Source of the DNA: Aureispira sp. CCB-QB1
GTDB taxonomy: Bacteria > Bacteroidota > Bacteroidia > Chitinophagales > Saprospiraceae
Direction of reading: 5' to 3'
Assembly (NCBI RefSeq): GCF_000724545.1
Contig: NZ_JHBV01000016.1
Span: forward strand, 1 to 64,000
Length of the DNA: 64,000 nt
Part shown: positions 4,811 through 24,850 of the stretch, piece after piece
Numbering within the stretch: the stretch's first letter is position 1
Layout of the letters: each line of letters opens with the position of its first letter
The notes under the pieces: generated by a model
Databases searched by the model: none
What the model was told of the DNA's origin: nothing
The model's input: the letters and a program-made list of their open reading frames with translations, nothing else
Made by a program: the position numbers and the translations under genes

Positions 4811-7126
4811 ATGGAAATAAGACTATTTACTTTCATTTTTTTACTGATTGCACTATCAACCAATGCTCAAAAAAGTCTCCTAAAAGGTAGAATCGTGAAT
4901 TCAGATAATGAAGCAGTTATTGCTGCCAATGTTATTTTATTGCAAGATAGTGTTGTTACTAACTTGGGGGCAACAACAGACATAGATGGTTTTTTTGAGC
5001 TTTCTAATGTTCCTCAAGGCAACTATACCTTGCAAACTTCTTATGTTGGTTTTGCAAGCTATCGTACCTCTATAAAAATAGAGGAGAATGAAGTTGATTT
5101 AGGAATTATTCGGCTAACACCAACCTCTGGAGTTATTGACGAAGTAGTTGTTACTCATAAAGGAGCCAACCTATTCAATCCGACTAAAATTGCCCCTACG
5201 GTTGCTACCAAATATGTCGTTGATCCAAGTGCCTTAGAAAAAATCACAGCCCCAACCAATCTAATTGAAGCCATTTCGCTTGTTAGTGGGGTACAAGAAG
5301 AAGTAGCTTGCGGTGTTTGTTTTACCAATACAATTAGCATTAATGGACTGCCAGGTCAATATACAGCAGTACTGATTGATGGTACTCCTATGTATGGTAA
5401 TTTAGCCTCTATTTATGCTTTGAACGGTCTGCCAACAACGATGATTGAGCGCATAGAGATTACCAAAGGACCTAGTTCTACTATTTTTGGTTCGGAAGCA
5501 GTTGCTGGTGCTATTAATGTGATTACAAAAGATCCTAGTCAAGAACCGTTGATTTCATTAGACATTATGGGAACATCTCATCTAGAGTCGTTTAACAACT
5601 TATCTTTAGCTGGAACATTCGGAAAATTTAATGGTATGGTTGGCGTCAATCATGCTTATGTTGGTACCAATCACGATGATAATGGTGATGGCTTTGGTGA
5701 TTTAATCAATCTAGATAGAGTCTCTGCCTTTGCCAAATTAAATATGAAGCGCCCTAAAAATCGTCGCTTCTCTCTTTTTGCTCGTTATTATTATGAAGAT
5801 AGAAGAAATGGCGTTGAAGAATATGTAAAGGGTAGAAATTATATTGATTTAAGAGGCGATGATATCATCTATGGTGAGAGTATTTTCACACAACGTTGGG
5901 AAATATTAGGAACCTATGATTTGCCGACTCAAGAGTATTTTAAATTAGATTATTCTTTTTCTGGCCACTACCAAGATAGCTATTATGGTTCTGATTATTA
6001 TAATGCAACGCAATATGTTGGTTATACAAATTTTAATTGGAACAAATACATCAAAGGGCACGGCATTACGGCTGGTCTAAACTTGCGTTATCAGTATTAT
6101 GATGATAATACCTTAGCAACGGTAGATAGTGTTGCGGGGAACATTCCTAGTCATCAATTTATTCCAGGGATATTTATTCAAGACGCTTGGGATATTTCTA
6201 AAAAAGTGGCGGTCTTATACGGTTGTCGACTAGACTATTTCCAAGATCATGGCGCTATCCCCGCCCCTCGATTTAATCTCAAATACAAACCAGACACGTG
6301 GACGACTTTTCGCCTAAACTTTGGTACAGGTTTTAGAATTGTCAATTTATTTACAGAAGATCATGCCTTTATCACAGGGAGTCGCCAAGTCGAAATTACA
6401 GAGCAAATACAACCCGAACGTTCTTACAATGGTTCTTTGAATTTTAACTATGTCTTTGCAATGGGTTCTAGCCAAGGAACGATTAATGTTGATGGTTTTT
6501 ACACTTACTTTACCAATGCCATTTTTCCTGATTATAGCAATCCAAAGAAAATTATTTACAAAAATCTAGATGGTTTTGCACAAACAAGAGGGTTTAGCAT
6601 CAATTATAGCCAACAATTCCGATTTCCCTTGGCTATCAGTTTATCGTATAATATGCAGTGGGCGGATCAGACCGATATTGATGAACAAGGCAACAAAACG
6701 ACTGGAGCATTAGAATACTCTCCTTTGTACAGTGGTTCTTTGGTTCTTAATTATACCTACAAACCATGGCAATTAAATTTTGCTTACACAGGAAAATTAA
6801 CGGGGCCTATGCAATTGCCTGAAGTATTTGACTTAGATGCCAATGGTACGCCCGTTGCCGTTGCTCGCCCAACTACTTCTAAACCGTTCTCAATGCACAA
6901 CATTCAAATTACTAAAGATTTTCCTAAATTGAATTTGAGTATTTATGTTGGTGTGCAAAATTTATTTGATTATCGACAAGAAATTTCACCTTTAGTAGGT
7001 TATAATGATCCCAATACCAATCCTGGTTTTAGCGATTACTTTGATACAGCTTATGCTTATTCTCCGATTCACGGTCGAGAATTTTATCTTGGTTTGCGTT
7101 GGAAATGGTCTCCTGCCAAACGATAA
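4811..7126 (+). CDS. TonB-dependent outer-membrane receptor
   Basis: A 771-aa ligand-gated outer-membrane transporter powered by TonB/ExbBD. A signal peptide (to about residue 20, ending TNAQ) is followed by a carboxypeptidase-regulatory-like domain (about 24-110: GRIVNSDNEAVIAANV...GFFELSNVPQGNY), a plug domain (about 125-240, with EITKGPSSTIFGSEAVAGAINV) and a 22-strand-type beta-barrel ending in the aromatic strand FYLGLRWKW. The plug contains CGVC, an unusual pair of cysteines near the ligand-facing region that could bind metal or form a disulfide. The twin operators in front of the gene suggest metal-dependent repression, so a metal, metallophore or haem substrate is plausible but unproven. 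A strong hairpin follows, so it is probably monocistronic. Confidence 0.9.
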   Translation: MEIRLFTFIFLLIALSTNAQKSLLKGRIVNSDNEAVIAANVILLQDSVVTNLGATTDIDGFFELSNVPQGNYTLQTSYVGFASYRTSIKIEENEVDLGIIRLTPTSGVIDEVVVTHKGANLFNPTKIAPTVATKYVVDPSALEKITAPTNLIEAISLVSGVQEEVACGVCFTNTISINGLPGQYTAVLIDGTPMYGNLASIYALNGLPTTMIERIEITKGPSSTIFGSEAVAGAINVITKDPSQEPLISLDIMGTSHLESFNNLSLAGTFGKFNGMVGVNHAYVGTNHDDNGDGFGDLINLDRVSAFAKLNMKRPKNRRFSLFARYYYEDRRNGVEEYVKGRNYIDLRGDDIIYGESIFTQRWEILGTYDLPTQEYFKLDYSFSGHYQDSYYGSDYYNATQYVGYTNFNWNKYIKGHGITAGLNLRYQYYDDNTLATVDSVAGNIPSHQFIPGIFIQDAWDISKKVAVLYGCRLDYFQDHGAIPAPRFNLKYKPDTWTTFRLNFGTGFRIVNLFTEDHAFITGSRQVEITEQIQPERSYNGSLNFNYVFAMGSSQGTINVDGFYTYFTNAIFPDYSNPKKIIYKNLDGFAQTRGFSINYSQQFRFPLAISLSYNMQWADQTDIDEQGNKTTGALEYSPLYSGSLVLNYTYKPWQLNFAYTGKLTGPMQLPEVFDLDANGTPVAVARPTTSKPFSMHNIQITKDFPKLNLSIYVGVQNLFDYRQEISPLVGYNDPNTNPGFSDYFDTAYAYSPIHGREFYLGLRWKWSPAKR

Positions 7127-19876: not shown

Positions 19877-20899
19877 ATGGTGCTTTTTGATTTTGTTTTT
19901 TATGCCCTTCTTTTTTTTACTGGCATTGGGAGTTATAAAATTATTCGATCAGCGCCAGCACAAAACAAGTTTATAAAGCTACTCAAATTGCTGTGGGTAC
20001 TCTGGACTGCTTCTCTTTGGATCGGTCTTATCCTACAATGGGTTTTGCCTAAAGGTTCTAAATATCAAGAAGCCGTACACTTGCCCCGTCATTTGTGGAT
20101 ACTAGATCATGGTTCCTTCAAAGATGGGTATTCCAAACAAAAGATAGCCTATGGTCAACATCCTAAGCAATACTACCATTACTATCCTGGTTTAGAGACT
20201 AGTCCAAAAAAAAATACAATCATTATCTACTTTCATGGCGGGGGGTGGTGCTTGGGTAGTCCAGATCAACATCGGTATTTAGCACACCTATTGCAACAAG
20301 AAGGATATAGTTTAGTTTTTCCTGCTTATCGCTTAACTCCAGCGTTTGGCTACAAAGACCTGCAAGCAGACGTTAACCATGCTGTACGACATGCCTTAAA
20401 TTTTGTAAAACAACAAGGGGTTGAACAACCTAAAATTATACTAGGCGGCACCTCTGCTGGAGGCAATTTGGCTAGTTTATTCGCTTATGACGAAAATAGA
20501 TGGTCAGCAATGGACCTAGATCGATCTATTTTAAAGGGCGTTTTCAGTATTGTTGGAGCACTTAATACAGCTGCTATGGAGCAAACCTATACCTTACTAA
20601 ATTATACTGGTCTCATTGATAGCCCATCTTACCAATTAGCCAATCCTCTTCATTGGATCAGCCCACAAGATACCTTTCCTTTTTTATGTTTACATGGCAA
20701 AAAAGACGGTTTGGTTGCTTATAAAGCGGTAGAAGAGTTTTGTAAAAAACTGAACCATACCGTCCCCAATATGTTACAATTCAAGACGTATGAAACAGCT
20801 ACTCATATTGAATTAGGAGCTGCTTGGTATTATAATTCCGAAGCAAATTTGGGACAAGATACGGTTCTAATTAACTGGTTAAATACCGTTTCTAGATAA
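19877..20899 (+). CDS. Alpha/beta-hydrolase, HSL-type esterase
   Basis: The 340-aa hydrolase has an N-terminal membrane segment or signal anchor (two hydrophobic stretches within residues 1-60). The hormone-sensitive-lipase signature is clear: oxyanion motif YFHGGGWCLGS, nucleophile motif GGTSAGGNLAS (serine), acid in LHGKKDGLVAYKAV (aspartate) and histidine in ETATHIELGAAW. It hydrolyses short-chain carboxylic esters by family. The AYRLTPAFGYKDLQADV segment matches the family's next conserved block. The substrate is unknown. Follows the NlpC/P60 gene closely. Membrane anchoring is inferred. Confidence 0.9.
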   Translation: MVLFDFVFYALLFFTGIGSYKIIRSAPAQNKFIKLLKLLWVLWTASLWIGLILQWVLPKGSKYQEAVHLPRHLWILDHGSFKDGYSKQKIAYGQHPKQYYHYYPGLETSPKKNTIIIYFHGGGWCLGSPDQHRYLAHLLQQEGYSLVFPAYRLTPAFGYKDLQADVNHAVRHALNFVKQQGVEQPKIILGGTSAGGNLASLFAYDENRWSAMDLDRSILKGVFSIVGALNTAAMEQTYTLLNYTGLIDSPSYQLANPLHWISPQDTFPFLCLHGKKDGLVAYKAVEEFCKKLNHTVPNMLQFKTYETATHIELGAAWYYNSEANLGQDTVLINWLNTVSR

Positions 20900-21179: not shown

Positions 21180-21211
21180 TTTGCTTCTAGGATTTTTTTC
21201 TACTATATTTG
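21180..21211 (+). promoter_or_regulatory. Bacteroidota promoter of the Cys-rich gene
   Basis: TTTG (21180-21183), a 20-bp spacer and TATATTTG (21204-21211) match the Bacteroidota primary promoter (TTTG, 17-23 bp, TAnnTTTG) exactly. The predicted transcript start is about 5-8 nt downstream, at or beside the ATG at 21217, so the mRNA may be leaderless or nearly so. Confidence 0.75.
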
Positions 21212-21216
21212 TTTGT

Positions 21217-21702
21217 ATGACAACGACAAAACATAAAATAACAGCCTTCTCATTGGCTTTTTTAGTTCTAATTTCAACGACTGGAATTGGACTAAATATT
21301 ATGTTATGTAATTGTACGGGAGTCCAATATCTAGCTATTCTAGCTTCTAAAATGAATTTAGAGTGTTGCAAAGAAAAACTAGCTGCTGCCAAGAAAAATT
21401 GTTGCACAAACTCTAAAACTATTCAGCAAGATAATTTTGACTCGCCTACTATAATGGCAGAAAAAGAGTGTTGTTCTTCTTCTTTTAAATATGCAAAAGC
21501 AAATATTAATTTAGAGCTTGTAAAAGAAATACCACTACCTACCACAAGTTTTGTTCACACATTTTGGGTACCTAGTAAGGTACTTCCATATACAGAACCA
21601 CTTTTACTTCCTCAAAATGTTGCTTGTAGCAATACATCTAATAAAGCACCTCCCCGATTTAAAGAATCAATCTTAAATTGGTTTCAAGTCTATCGTTGCT
21701 AG
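21217..21702 (+). CDS. Cys-rich membrane-anchored protein, HYC_CC_PP-like
   Basis: The 161-aa protein (start ATG 21217; an upstream TTG would lie in the promoter) has a hydrophobic N-terminal segment (about residues 9-30), then LCNCTGVQYL, LECCKEKL, KKNCCTNS and EKECCSSSF, and ends with an APPRFKESILNW segment and a final cysteine. This order of a Cys pair, several CC pairs and a C-terminal PP matches the Bacteroidota HYC_CC_PP family, usually encoded next to heavy-metal TBDRs; the usual HYC is replaced by LCNC. The next gene, 190 nt downstream, is such a TBDR with fused metal-binding domains. A periplasmic metal-binding role is plausible by context, but no member has a proven function that I know. 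Confidence 0.65.
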   Translation: MTTTKHKITAFSLAFLVLISTTGIGLNIMLCNCTGVQYLAILASKMNLECCKEKLAAAKKNCCTNSKTIQQDNFDSPTIMAEKECCSSSFKYAKANINLELVKEIPLPTTSFVHTFWVPSKVLPYTEPLLLPQNVACSNTSNKAPPRFKESILNWFQVYRC

Positions 21703-21892: not shown

Positions 21893-24850
21893 ATGCACTA
21901 CTTATTATTATCATGCTGGATAACATTCTTTGCATTTATTTCTCATCACACTGCTTCTGCTCAAGAAGATCCTATGCGCTTCTCAGGAATGGTGGTTAAC
22001 AAAGCCGATGAGCCTCTTATTGGCGCAACAGTAAACTGGGTTAATACCACTGTTGGTGGTGTTACAGATATAGATGGTTGGTTTGATATTCCTAGGTTAG
22101 ATAGTACCAATTCGCATATTTTAGAAATTAATTATGTCGGTTACGAAACCGTTCAAGTAGAGATTCTTCCAAGCGAAGAACGCCTAAAACTCGTTGTTGA
22201 AGATAATACAACTCTTGAAGATATTGTTGTCGAAGCCAAAGAACGAAGTAGTTTTACCTCTACCTTAGACCCCATCAATCTAGAAACTATTGGAGCAGGC
22301 GAATTGCGTCGAGCAGCTTGCTGTAACCTTTCGGAAAGTTTTGAAAACAATGCTACTGTCAATGTCAATTTTAGCGATGCTATTACAGGTGCCAAAGAAA
22401 TTGAGATGCTAGGGCTTCGGGGCACTTACACACAAATGCTTATCGAAAACCGCCCCTCGTTCAACCGTCTTGGTCGCGCTTATGGTTTAGAGTACATCCC
22501 AGGAACATTCATTGAAGCCATTCAAATTTCCAAAGGAGCTAGTTCGGTCCGTAATGGCGTGCAGGGCATCACAGGTCAAATTAATACAGAACTCATTAAA
22601 CCTTACAAAGCACCGCTTTTGTTTCTAAATCTATTTGCTAATTATACGGGACGGGTAGAATTAAATGCTCAGTTCAATTATAGAATTACCAAAAATTGGA
22701 GTACAGGTTTGCTCATGCATGGCAATTATTATGGAACTGAAATTGATTATAACAAAGACTCATTCCTTGATATTCCACAAAAAAAGCAAGTTAACATCAT
22801 CTCTAGATGGGTTTATAAACCCGAATCTTTGCATTTTGAAATCAACTTTCAAGGTATTCTAGATAGTCGCGTTGGTGGTCAAACTCAAAGTAGTTTTCAA
22901 AAAGTATTTGACCAACCTGCTACTCGTTTGTATCAAGTCAATAGTGAAATTCGCCGTCTTGGAGTATTTGGAAAACTCGGCTACTTTGGTTTTGATAATC
23001 CCAAACAAAGTATTGCTGTTGTTTACGATGCCAACATACATCAACACAACTCTTATTTTGGAAGTAAAAAATATACTGGTTTGCAAAAACGCTTGTATGC
23101 TAATTTTGTTTTCCAGACCAATTTGGGCAACACTGGATTACACAATTTAAGCACTGGTTTGAATTATGATTTGATTGATTTCAAAGAGCAATTTGTTGAT
23201 ATTAATAACGATCGAACAGAGCACCTTGCAGCTCTTTATGCAGAATATGATTTTACCAAAAAATTTAATGAAGAGAAAGGCACTCAATTTGGTTTAATCT
23301 TAGGAGTTCGTTCTGATTTAATACACACACAACAGTATACCAAGTTTTATCCTTCTCCTCGCTTGAATATTAAGTATAATTTCTCAGATGATATGGTCAT
23401 TCGCGCTTCGGCAGGACGAGGAGTTCGCACAACGAACTTATTGATTGAAAACTTAAAGTTCATGCCGAGTTATAAGGAGTTTTCTGTCTTGGAAACCATC
23501 CTACCAGAAGTTGCTTGGAATTACGGTGTGAATTTTGCTTGGAACCTCAAGATAAGTCCCAAATTAGAAGGTAGCTTAAATGTTGACCTTTACAGAACAG
23601 ACTTTGAAAATCAATTGATTGTAGATTTAGATTCTGATCCTACTTATACTCGCATACAATTCTACAATTTGAACGGAAAATCTTTTGCCAACAGTATTCT
23701 GATTAGTTATACCCAAGATATAATAAAAGGCTTAGAAGCTAGAGTAGCCTATAAATTTAACGACGTTAGAATGACTTATGGCACTGTACTACATCAAATG
23801 CCTTTAATGCCACAACACCGAGGGCTTATTCATTTAAACTATACCACTCCCAAAAAAGATTGGGAATTTAACGTGACCCTAAATATTATTGGTTCACAAC
23901 GTTTGCCACATTTACACCCTCCTTATGGTGATAACTTACCTGCCTACCGTTTTCAAGAATATAGCCCCGCGTATGTTCGTTTGAATGCTCATATTTCTAA
24001 GTTTTTCAAAGGAGGCTGGGAAATTTATATTGGAGGTGAAAACCTAACCAATTATACACAAGAACAACCAATTTTGGGTTATCAAGATCCCTTTGGAACA
24101 TCTACGACCAACAGCTATGCTAAATTTGATGCTACATCTGTTTTTGCTCCTGTCTTTGGTGCCCAAGTGTATGCTGGTGTCAAGTATACTTTTGAAGGAA
24201 AAGAACGCTTTGCTCCTGTCAATTCATGCTCTAGTATACCTACTATTTCAGAAAATACAATACCGACTAAAGAGGATTGGATATTAGACGAAAATCAGCA
24301 ACGAATAGCGATTAAAACGTCATCTCAGTGTGGCTCATGTGAAGAGATTATGCAAAAAGCATTATCCAACTTAGCTGGCATCGAGCAAGTTAGTTTAGAT
24401 ATAGAAACACAAATCTTAACCGTTATTTATCATCCTAATCAAGTTGAGGTCTCTGATATTCGAAATGCCATTTCAGAAGCGGGTTACGATGCCGATCATG
24501 TAAAAGCAAATCCTCAAGCACACGATAATTTGCCTGGTTGTTGCCAACAAGATGGAGGACATAGAGATGGTAAAACTAATTATACCTTAACAACTGCCGT
24601 TATTCAAAGTTCTAATCAATGTGGTATGTGTACCATTACAATTAGTGAGGCTTTATTTGCCTTCGATGGCGTAAAGAATGTATCTGCTGATGAAGAGAAA
24701 CATACTGTAACCGTCCAATTCATTGAGCAGAAGATTAACCTTCAAAAAATAAAAAAGGCAATTACTAAGGTTGGTTATGATGCTGATAATCTAAAAGCAA
24801 ACAAAGCAGCTTATGATAAGCTACATGGTTGTTGTAAAAAAGCAGAGTAA
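21893..24850 (+). CDS. TonB-dependent receptor fused to two C-terminal HMA domains
   Basis: The 985-aa protein consists of a signal peptide (to about 24), a CarboxypepD-regulatory-like domain (about 28-105), a plug (about 130-250), a beta-barrel to about residue 780 (ending VYAGVKYTFEG), and then two heavy-metal-associated domains. HMA1 has C813-G-S-C816 and ends with LPGCCQQ (C883, C884); HMA2 has C910-G-M-C913 and ends with LHGCCKKAE. The plug contains AACCNLSESF and TGAKEIEMLGLRG, typical of a Bacteroidota receptor group associated with copper or other soft metals. After the barrel the chain should emerge in the periplasm, so the two HMA domains could receive the imported ion there. Such HMA proteins are normally separate genes; the fusion and its duplication are unusual. 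A frame error creating the join is unlikely, since one frame runs through without interruption. Confidence 0.9.
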   Translation: MHYLLLSCWITFFAFISHHTASAQEDPMRFSGMVVNKADEPLIGATVNWVNTTVGGVTDIDGWFDIPRLDSTNSHILEINYVGYETVQVEILPSEERLKLVVEDNTTLEDIVVEAKERSSFTSTLDPINLETIGAGELRRAACCNLSESFENNATVNVNFSDAITGAKEIEMLGLRGTYTQMLIENRPSFNRLGRAYGLEYIPGTFIEAIQISKGASSVRNGVQGITGQINTELIKPYKAPLLFLNLFANYTGRVELNAQFNYRITKNWSTGLLMHGNYYGTEIDYNKDSFLDIPQKKQVNIISRWVYKPESLHFEINFQGILDSRVGGQTQSSFQKVFDQPATRLYQVNSEIRRLGVFGKLGYFGFDNPKQSIAVVYDANIHQHNSYFGSKKYTGLQKRLYANFVFQTNLGNTGLHNLSTGLNYDLIDFKEQFVDINNDRTEHLAALYAEYDFTKKFNEEKGTQFGLILGVRSDLIHTQQYTKFYPSPRLNIKYNFSDDMVIRASAGRGVRTTNLLIENLKFMPSYKEFSVLETILPEVAWNYGVNFAWNLKISPKLEGSLNVDLYRTDFENQLIVDLDSDPTYTRIQFYNLNGKSFANSILISYTQDIIKGLEARVAYKFNDVRMTYGTVLHQMPLMPQHRGLIHLNYTTPKKDWEFNVTLNIIGSQRLPHLHPPYGDNLPAYRFQEYSPAYVRLNAHISKFFKGGWEIYIGGENLTNYTQEQPILGYQDPFGTSTTNSYAKFDATSVFAPVFGAQVYAGVKYTFEGKERFAPVNSCSSIPTISENTIPTKEDWILDENQQRIAIKTSSQCGSCEEIMQKALSNLAGIEQVSLDIETQILTVIYHPNQVEVSDIRNAISEAGYDADHVKANPQAHDNLPGCCQQDGGHRDGKTNYTLTTAVIQSSNQCGMCTITISEALFAFDGVKNVSADEEKHTVTVQFIEQKINLQKIKKAITKVGYDADNLKANKAAYDKLHGCCKKAE

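Follow-up and report, generated by a model that had tools for sequence, protein, structure and literature searches.

To our knowledge, it is largely an open question how the periplasm takes over ions that cross the outer membrane by way of a TonB-dependent receptor. The window analyzed here, the whole stretch of 64,000 nucleotides from contig NZ_JHBV01000016.1 of Aureispira sp. CCB-QB1, encodes a TonB-dependent receptor ending in two heavy-metal-associated (HMA) domains, and so raises the question of whether one polypeptide could both import a metal ion and receive it.

Architecture of the receptor-HMA protein

The gene and its parts were placed as follows:

21893..24850, + strand: single 985-aa frame encoding a TonB-dependent receptor that ends in two HMA domains
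21983..22231, + strand: CarboxypepD_reg-like domain, residues 31-113 (Pfam PF13715, CarbopepD_reg_2, E 7e-13)
22274..22576, + strand: Plug domain, residues 128-228 (Pfam PF07715, E 8e-8)
22319..22324, + strand: vicinal cysteines C143-C144 in the plug, kept in 101/101 aligned family members
22619..24193, + strand: beta-barrel, residues 243-767, 22 strands (Pfam and the DSSP line of the predicted model)
24194..24298, + strand: linker, residues 768-802, containing C779 (776-793 disordered in the model)
24299..24547, + strand: HMA domain 1, residues 803-885, with C813GSC816 and GCC at 882-884 (Pfam, model)
24587..24835, + strand: HMA domain 2, residues 899-981, with C910GMC913 and GCC at 979-981 (Pfam, model)

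The open reading frame starts with ATG and consists of 985 codons and a stop with no internal stops, as the first-pass annotation had read it. The protein begins with a signal peptide. The earlier description of a complete receptor was borne out, with CarbopepD_reg_2, Plug (33.3 bits, cut-off 23.9) and the TonB barrel (PF00593, residues 315-718, 69.1 bits, cut-off 27, E 9e-19) all above the Pfam cut-offs; the CarboxypepD_reg model, which overlaps CarbopepD_reg_2, was slightly below its own. The HMA model (PF00403) matched two stretches (E 3e-21; 75.9 bits for the whole protein, cut-off 24.8), and the CGSC and CGMC cysteines lie exactly where they had been reported, each module ending in GCC as described. 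The protein contains 12 cysteines: C8 in the signal peptide, C143-C144, C779, and eight in the HMA modules. HMA1 and HMA2 are identical at 32 of 82 aligned residues.

Among NCBIfam models the HMA units scored best with CopZ_Bs (76.9, cut-off 91), followed by UxxU (59.1, cut-off 95) and MerP (54.9, cut-off 92.55). All three scores were under the curated cut-offs, and the units were rejected as CopZ, UxxU or MerP equivalogs. A defense system was also rejected, with zero PADLOC model matches. The genome of this strain contained 38 Plug-family matches and six HMA places; the receptor at 21893-24850 was the only Plug place that coincided with, or lay within 5 kb of, any HMA place.

Predicted structure and topology

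An AlphaFold2 model of the protein, built from an input alignment of 56 sequences, had a mean pLDDT of 86.8 and a pTM of 0.68. This prediction, proposed in the first-pass annotation as a check, returned a plug, a 22-strand barrel, a linker and two HMA folds. The barrel strands were counted in the DSSP line of the model. The final strand spans 758-767, which moves the end of the barrel from the earlier estimate of about residue 780 to 767. Residues 776-793 were predicted with pLDDT below 50, and the two beta-alpha-beta-beta-alpha units (803-862 and 899-959) mostly with pLDDT of about 80-95. Ahead of the plug, within a stretch that is disordered in the model (106-117), the motif LEDIVVEA resembles what we take to be the Bacteroidota TonB box. 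Foldseek neighbors were TonB-dependent transporters, with PqqU, PhuR, Cir and ZnuD first (ZnuD at rank 4) and OprC at rank 26.

The topology of TonB-dependent receptors, with a periplasmic plug and an even number of strands, is established. Since the 22 predicted strands follow a periplasmic plug, the C-terminus of the receptor, and with it the HMA pair, should be periplasmic, in agreement with the earlier expectation.

The C-terminal fusion in Aureispira and a second genus

The C-terminal HMA fusion was found in eight of nine Aureispira genomes (the source genome, G001-G007 and G695): seven carried two C-terminal HMA domains, G005 carried one, and G002 carried none. G695, a second assembly of the same species in two contigs, contained a 985-aa frame with the same layout. 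These relatives and the second assembly rule out an assembly error, and the receptor-HMA fusion is confirmed. A second genus of the same family (g232) had a single C-terminal HMA domain in 3/3 fetched genomes (L194-L196), with 9-16 His per 70 residues in the linker stretch before it; a fourth g232 genome, G728, had a similar long frame. In G002 the receptor ends in a His-rich tail (12 His) without an HMA domain (L038:5909-8380, - strand). Two HMA domains do occur elsewhere in the G002 genome, in a detached 226-aa protein that looks exported (L187:5802-6482, - strand). In G003, HMA2 no longer ends in CC.

Comparison with G001 and G006 gave dN/dS values of 0.06-0.18 for the HMA units and 0.04-0.05 for the receptor part, with synonymous sites near saturation. 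By these ratios each HMA unit is under purifying selection, and the receptor part under stricter selection.

A FastTree phylogeny of 120 receptors, from which L042 was omitted as a near-copy, required two changes of the C-fusion label. The best reading of this tree is one gain before Aureispira and g232 parted and one loss in G002. The nearest outside rows to the C-fused receptors, L056 and L211, had no recognised HMA. On an HMA tree built from 88 columns the C-fused domains grouped together (SH-aLRT 96), which makes duplication within the fused gene the most likely origin of the pair. For all 18 C-fused domains the best match outside the group was the HMA of a downstream gene, which fits fusion of a downstream neighbor.

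Linkage of receptor and HMA across Bacteroidota

A profile of 27 receptors was run over 395 genomes of the phylum, one genome per species. Its matches fell into two families, a core family with E values no higher than about 1e-174 and a sister family matched more weakly, from about 1e-138 on. At least 103 core-family matches were listed (E up to 4.5e-174), and 80 of these loci were fetched; the source locus and 22 others, 13 of the 22 from genus g51, were left out. Two additional sets were chosen by hand (20 relatives, and 20 loci with mostly long frames), and proportions within them are not sampling results. Open reading frames were called mechanically. HMA domains were detected with a profile seeded from the protein's own two HMA domains, and a few proteins were checked against Pfam. 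With the sister family included, the receptor family was present in at least 81 of 171 genera scanned (E 1e-90).

A separate HMA gene on the same strand within 200 bp of the receptor was found at 44/80 core loci (25 downstream, 17 upstream and two both), and for this receptor family the earlier remark that HMA proteins usually have a small gene of their own is therefore right. N-terminal HMA fusions occurred at 12 of the 80 loci (five single, seven double), and an HMA lay only farther away at four. The remaining 20 had no recognised HMA, and diverged HMA genes may sit among them, since the detecting profile was seeded from the protein's own two domains. C-terminal HMA fusions were found at 0/80 sampled core loci. 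By these counts N-terminal fusions are commoner than C-terminal ones (12/80 vs 0/80), and by the receptor tree, on which the N-fusion label changed four times, they are of separate origin. At L148 a receptor with an N-terminal HMA domain is accompanied by a free-standing HMA gene, which lies 14 bp upstream; this may represent a transitional state.

No HMA was found within about 5 kb on either side at 20 sister-family loci. Against this 0/20 a chance linkage of receptor and HMA is unlikely, the sister loci being a control taken from the top of the family list and not a neutral null, as a plug Cys motif occurs there too. Clustering of 974 neighbor proteins gave HMA as the commonest neighbor, at 53/101 loci and adjacent at 48, and a hydrophobic N-terminal stretch was present in 49 of 54 adjacent small HMA proteins. 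The HMA and a Cys-rich protein, described below, were the two prominent neighbors; the next cluster covered 13 loci, all on the opposite strand. Among loci without recognised HMA, L117 adjoined a YHS-domain protein, and L122 and L133 adjoined an exported-looking 115-aa protein, that of L133 with zero Pfam family matches.

In annotated plasmid records the order hypothetical protein, receptor, HMA protein was seen in Parabacteroides distasonis and Bernardetia. On a Haliscomenobacter plasmid HMA was absent, and a CusA/CzcA exporter came after the receptors. In these records, receptor, HMA and HYC_CC_PP proteins were labelled only by domain names or as "hypothetical protein". A second receptor within the window (4811-7126, + strand) belongs to the sister family, has CGVC in its plug, and is a candidate soft-metal receptor without HMA.

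The Cys-rich companion gene and other neighbors

One further gene of the window resembles a recurrent partner of the family:

21217..21702, + strand: small protein, rich in Cys and exported-looking, similar to HYC_CC_PP of NCBIfam; 161 aa when read from ATG (TTG at 21181 also open)

Its product scored 21.1 bits with NF047658 (HYC_CC_PP), under the cut-off of 28; a profile built from the genes lying upstream of other family receptors matched it at E 5.6e-10. The Cys-rich neighbor cluster was upstream and on the same strand in all 38 of its loci. At a loose threshold (E 0.01), and with the 38 seed loci counted among the matches, its profile matched at 77/101 loci, and at 75/101 the match was upstream, on the same strand and within 900 bp. 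NF047658 was matched at E 0.01 by 35 of 37 aligned Cys-rich members. HYC_CC_PP may, as a guess, be an exported, Cys-rich protein that binds metal. An alpha/beta-hydrolase-like gene (19877-20899, + strand) lies upstream of the Cys-rich gene, and similar frames were upstream in several congeners (L008-L013).

P-type ATPases were near family members at 3/121 loci, all with CPC, YN and MxxSS motifs, which we take to be the signature of the Cu(I) type. The adjacent exporter at L146, being of the general CzcA type, is no argument for copper. ATPase and RND genes were too few for the identity of the metal to be read from neighbors.

Conserved residues of the receptor and its HMA partners

C143 and C144 were present in 101/101 aligned family members and H276, on the third barrel strand, in 96/101. 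Beyond the plug pair, 86/101 members had zero Cys in model columns. The sister family had CxVC or CxIC in place of CC in 20/20. A structural disulfide between the adjacent C143 and C144 seems unlikely. The CC end was found in 11/11 C-fused first, 6/7 C-fused second and 42/42 N-fused HMA domains, in 28/32 HMAs of downstream genes and 24/27 of upstream genes, and in 0/4 HMA domains of large proteins from the same stretches.

Comparison with known systems

In the available excerpts of PMC8610252, OprC of Pseudomonas aeruginosa is a TonB-dependent importer of ionic copper, whose ligands are a Cys and a Met of the plug and a His and a Met of the barrel. The receptor-HMA protein resembles it in having a 22-strand TonB-dependent barrel, with a Cys in the plug and a His in the barrel. 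It differs in that CxxxM-HxM is absent, its place taken by C143-C144-N-L-S-E and H276-G-N, and in its HMA domains, which the excerpted description of OprC does not include (PMC8610252). OprC was not among the PDB sequence matches of the protein, and no copper-receptor model was among its NCBIfam matches at E 0.01. Membership in the OprC group was rejected on the lack of a sequence match and of CxxxM-HxM; the analogy for C143, C144 and H276 as a metal path, with a differing motif, is suggestive. An OprC-like receptor with CxxxM-HxM and a proposed role in copper uptake is described for Bizionia argentinensis in excerpts of PMC11213822.

The CrtA family (PMC12914433) and TccA (PMC12617631) are, in the portions of those papers available, TonB-dependent copper transporters tied to respiratory oxidases, and CrtA has a conserved genetic partner (PMC12914433), as the present family does. 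According to the same portions CrtA receptors have no conserved Cys or Met and have PepSY_TM partners (PMC12914433), whereas the family described here has an invariant Cys pair and an HMA partner; with C143-C144 in 101/101 members it falls outside the CrtA family. Excerpts of PMC13188914 list a receptor type that contains selenocysteine, along with HMA-like selenocysteine proteins. NCBIfam includes a CU-motif receptor model.

Chaperones of the CopZ, MerP and MerTP type share the HMA fold and CxxC, and in MerTP an HMA domain is joined to a transporter; here, by contrast, the transporting part is a barrel of the outer membrane and CC closes each HMA module. The N-terminal HMA-receptor fusions (L044 and L142 among them) have the same receptor family and CC-ended HMA domains in one or two copies, but the HMA stands before CarboxypepD_reg or the plug, and their origin is separate on the tree. 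The sister family of 4811-7126 is related and has a plug Cys motif, but has CxVC or CxIC instead of CC and lacks HMA, both in 20/20.

No description of the receptor-HMA fusion or of the three-part arrangement was recognised in the open PubMed Central literature as far as its text was available, and the available parts of PMC12119571 and PMC6417203 contained nothing on a receptor-HMA system. In its available text PMC6417203 tabulates PGN_0493 as a heavy-metal-associated domain gene but treats it in the discussion as Hma, the haem receptor of E. coli, which looks like a name confusion.

Proposed import and hand-over of a soft metal

Fusion of the same two partners is a classical sign of joint function. 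Receptor and HMA occur as neighbors and fused at either end, which argues that they work together. We think it somewhat probable that the receptor-HMA protein imports a soft metal, most likely copper, across the outer membrane and has a metallochaperone pair of its own on the periplasmic side. The observations beneath this reading are the architecture, its conservation and purifying selection, the linkage, the separate fusions at either end and the predicted folds. The conserved C143-C144 and H276, and the His-rich linkers or tails of the second genus and of G002, also count in its favor. Copper is the first choice because the sites are thiolate, three nearby ATPases have Cu(I) motifs, the HMA units score best with CopZ models, though below cut-off, and TonB-dependent copper import is established for OprC (PMC8610252) and supported for CrtA (PMC12914433) and TccA (PMC12617631) in the excerpts available; as a substrate it would be the likeliest, and Cu(I) is a best guess.

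Substrate, direction, hand-over and hand-over chemistry are what we infer within the import reading. TonB would pull on the plug, and the ion, whether it arrives free or has been taken off a carrier, would pass the plug at C143-C144, where H276 in the wall of the barrel may take part. In the periplasm the CxxC of a tethered HMA domain would take it by thiol ligand exchange, with the CC that closes each module helping capture, and the ion would move on from the HMA to the copper-protein assembly or transport machinery of the cell. Elsewhere in the phylum the same hand-over may use the small exported HMA protein of a neighboring gene, or N-terminal HMA domains; in the Aureispira lineage the receptor would have gained a downstream HMA gene by fusion, followed by a duplication inside the gene. 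The first-pass interpretation, that the receptor could hand the ion straight to its own HMA pair, is partly supported: comparative data make it likelier than sequence alone did. The first-pass account did not include the wider receptor, HMA and HYC_CC_PP arrangement of the phylum, of which this protein is one form, the N-terminal fusions or the Cys pair of the plug. Against import with hand-over stand L056 and L211 without recognised HMA, the lesser constraint on the HMA units, the lost CC of HMA2 in G003, and the absent OprC site. The 20/80 loci without recognised HMA, the 4/80 with a distant one, and G002 indicate that the receptor can do without a linked HMA.

The same design of import and hand-over might serve another soft metal (Zn, Cd, Ag, Hg or Co) or a metal-carrier complex, which we consider rather unlikely. 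The scores of the HMA units with the MerP and UxxU metal-binding models, the zinc importer ZnuD at rank 4 among fold matches, the His-rich linkers of the second genus and CzcA-type exporters near two family members point that way; the sites, however, are all-thiolate, without the Asp/His mix of many zinc sites, and 3/3 nearby P-type ATPases are of the Cu(I) motif type.

It is less probable still that the HMA tail does not receive imported ions and acts as a periplasmic buffer, a sensor or gate tuning the receptor, or a part of metal resistance. HMA domains are sensors or regulators in some P-type ATPases, and a CusA/CzcA exporter follows family receptors on the Haliscomenobacter plasmid and at L146, but exporters are rare near family members and the free HMA proteins at 44/80 loci fit a carrier better than a built-in gate. 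A neutral or accidental fusion, in which a stop codon was lost and the two parts are functionally uncoupled, or else an error of assembly, could draw on G002 without its HMA part and on the degraded HMA2 of G003, but is largely refuted and very improbable given the fusion in 8/9 Aureispira genomes and a second genus, a tail dN/dS well under 1, and the same partner joined at the opposite receptor end elsewhere.

The reading of metal import with hand-over extends, tentatively and with slightly less than even confidence, to an undescribed, phylum-wide metal-acquisition system of Bacteroidota made up of a HYC_CC_PP protein, a CC-plug receptor and an exported HMA protein. In such a system a thiolate relay from the plug Cys pair to CxxC and CC would couple import to capture and keep the periplasm without free ion, and Aureispira and the related genus would have receptor and HMA in one polypeptide. 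The pattern of neighbors, N-terminal fusions and C-terminal fusions suggests a function for the receptor family, for the exported HMA proteins that adjoin it, and for HYC_CC_PP. With importer and chaperone in one chain, the Aureispira protein would offer a natural one-protein test of metal transfer between partners that are always present 1:1.
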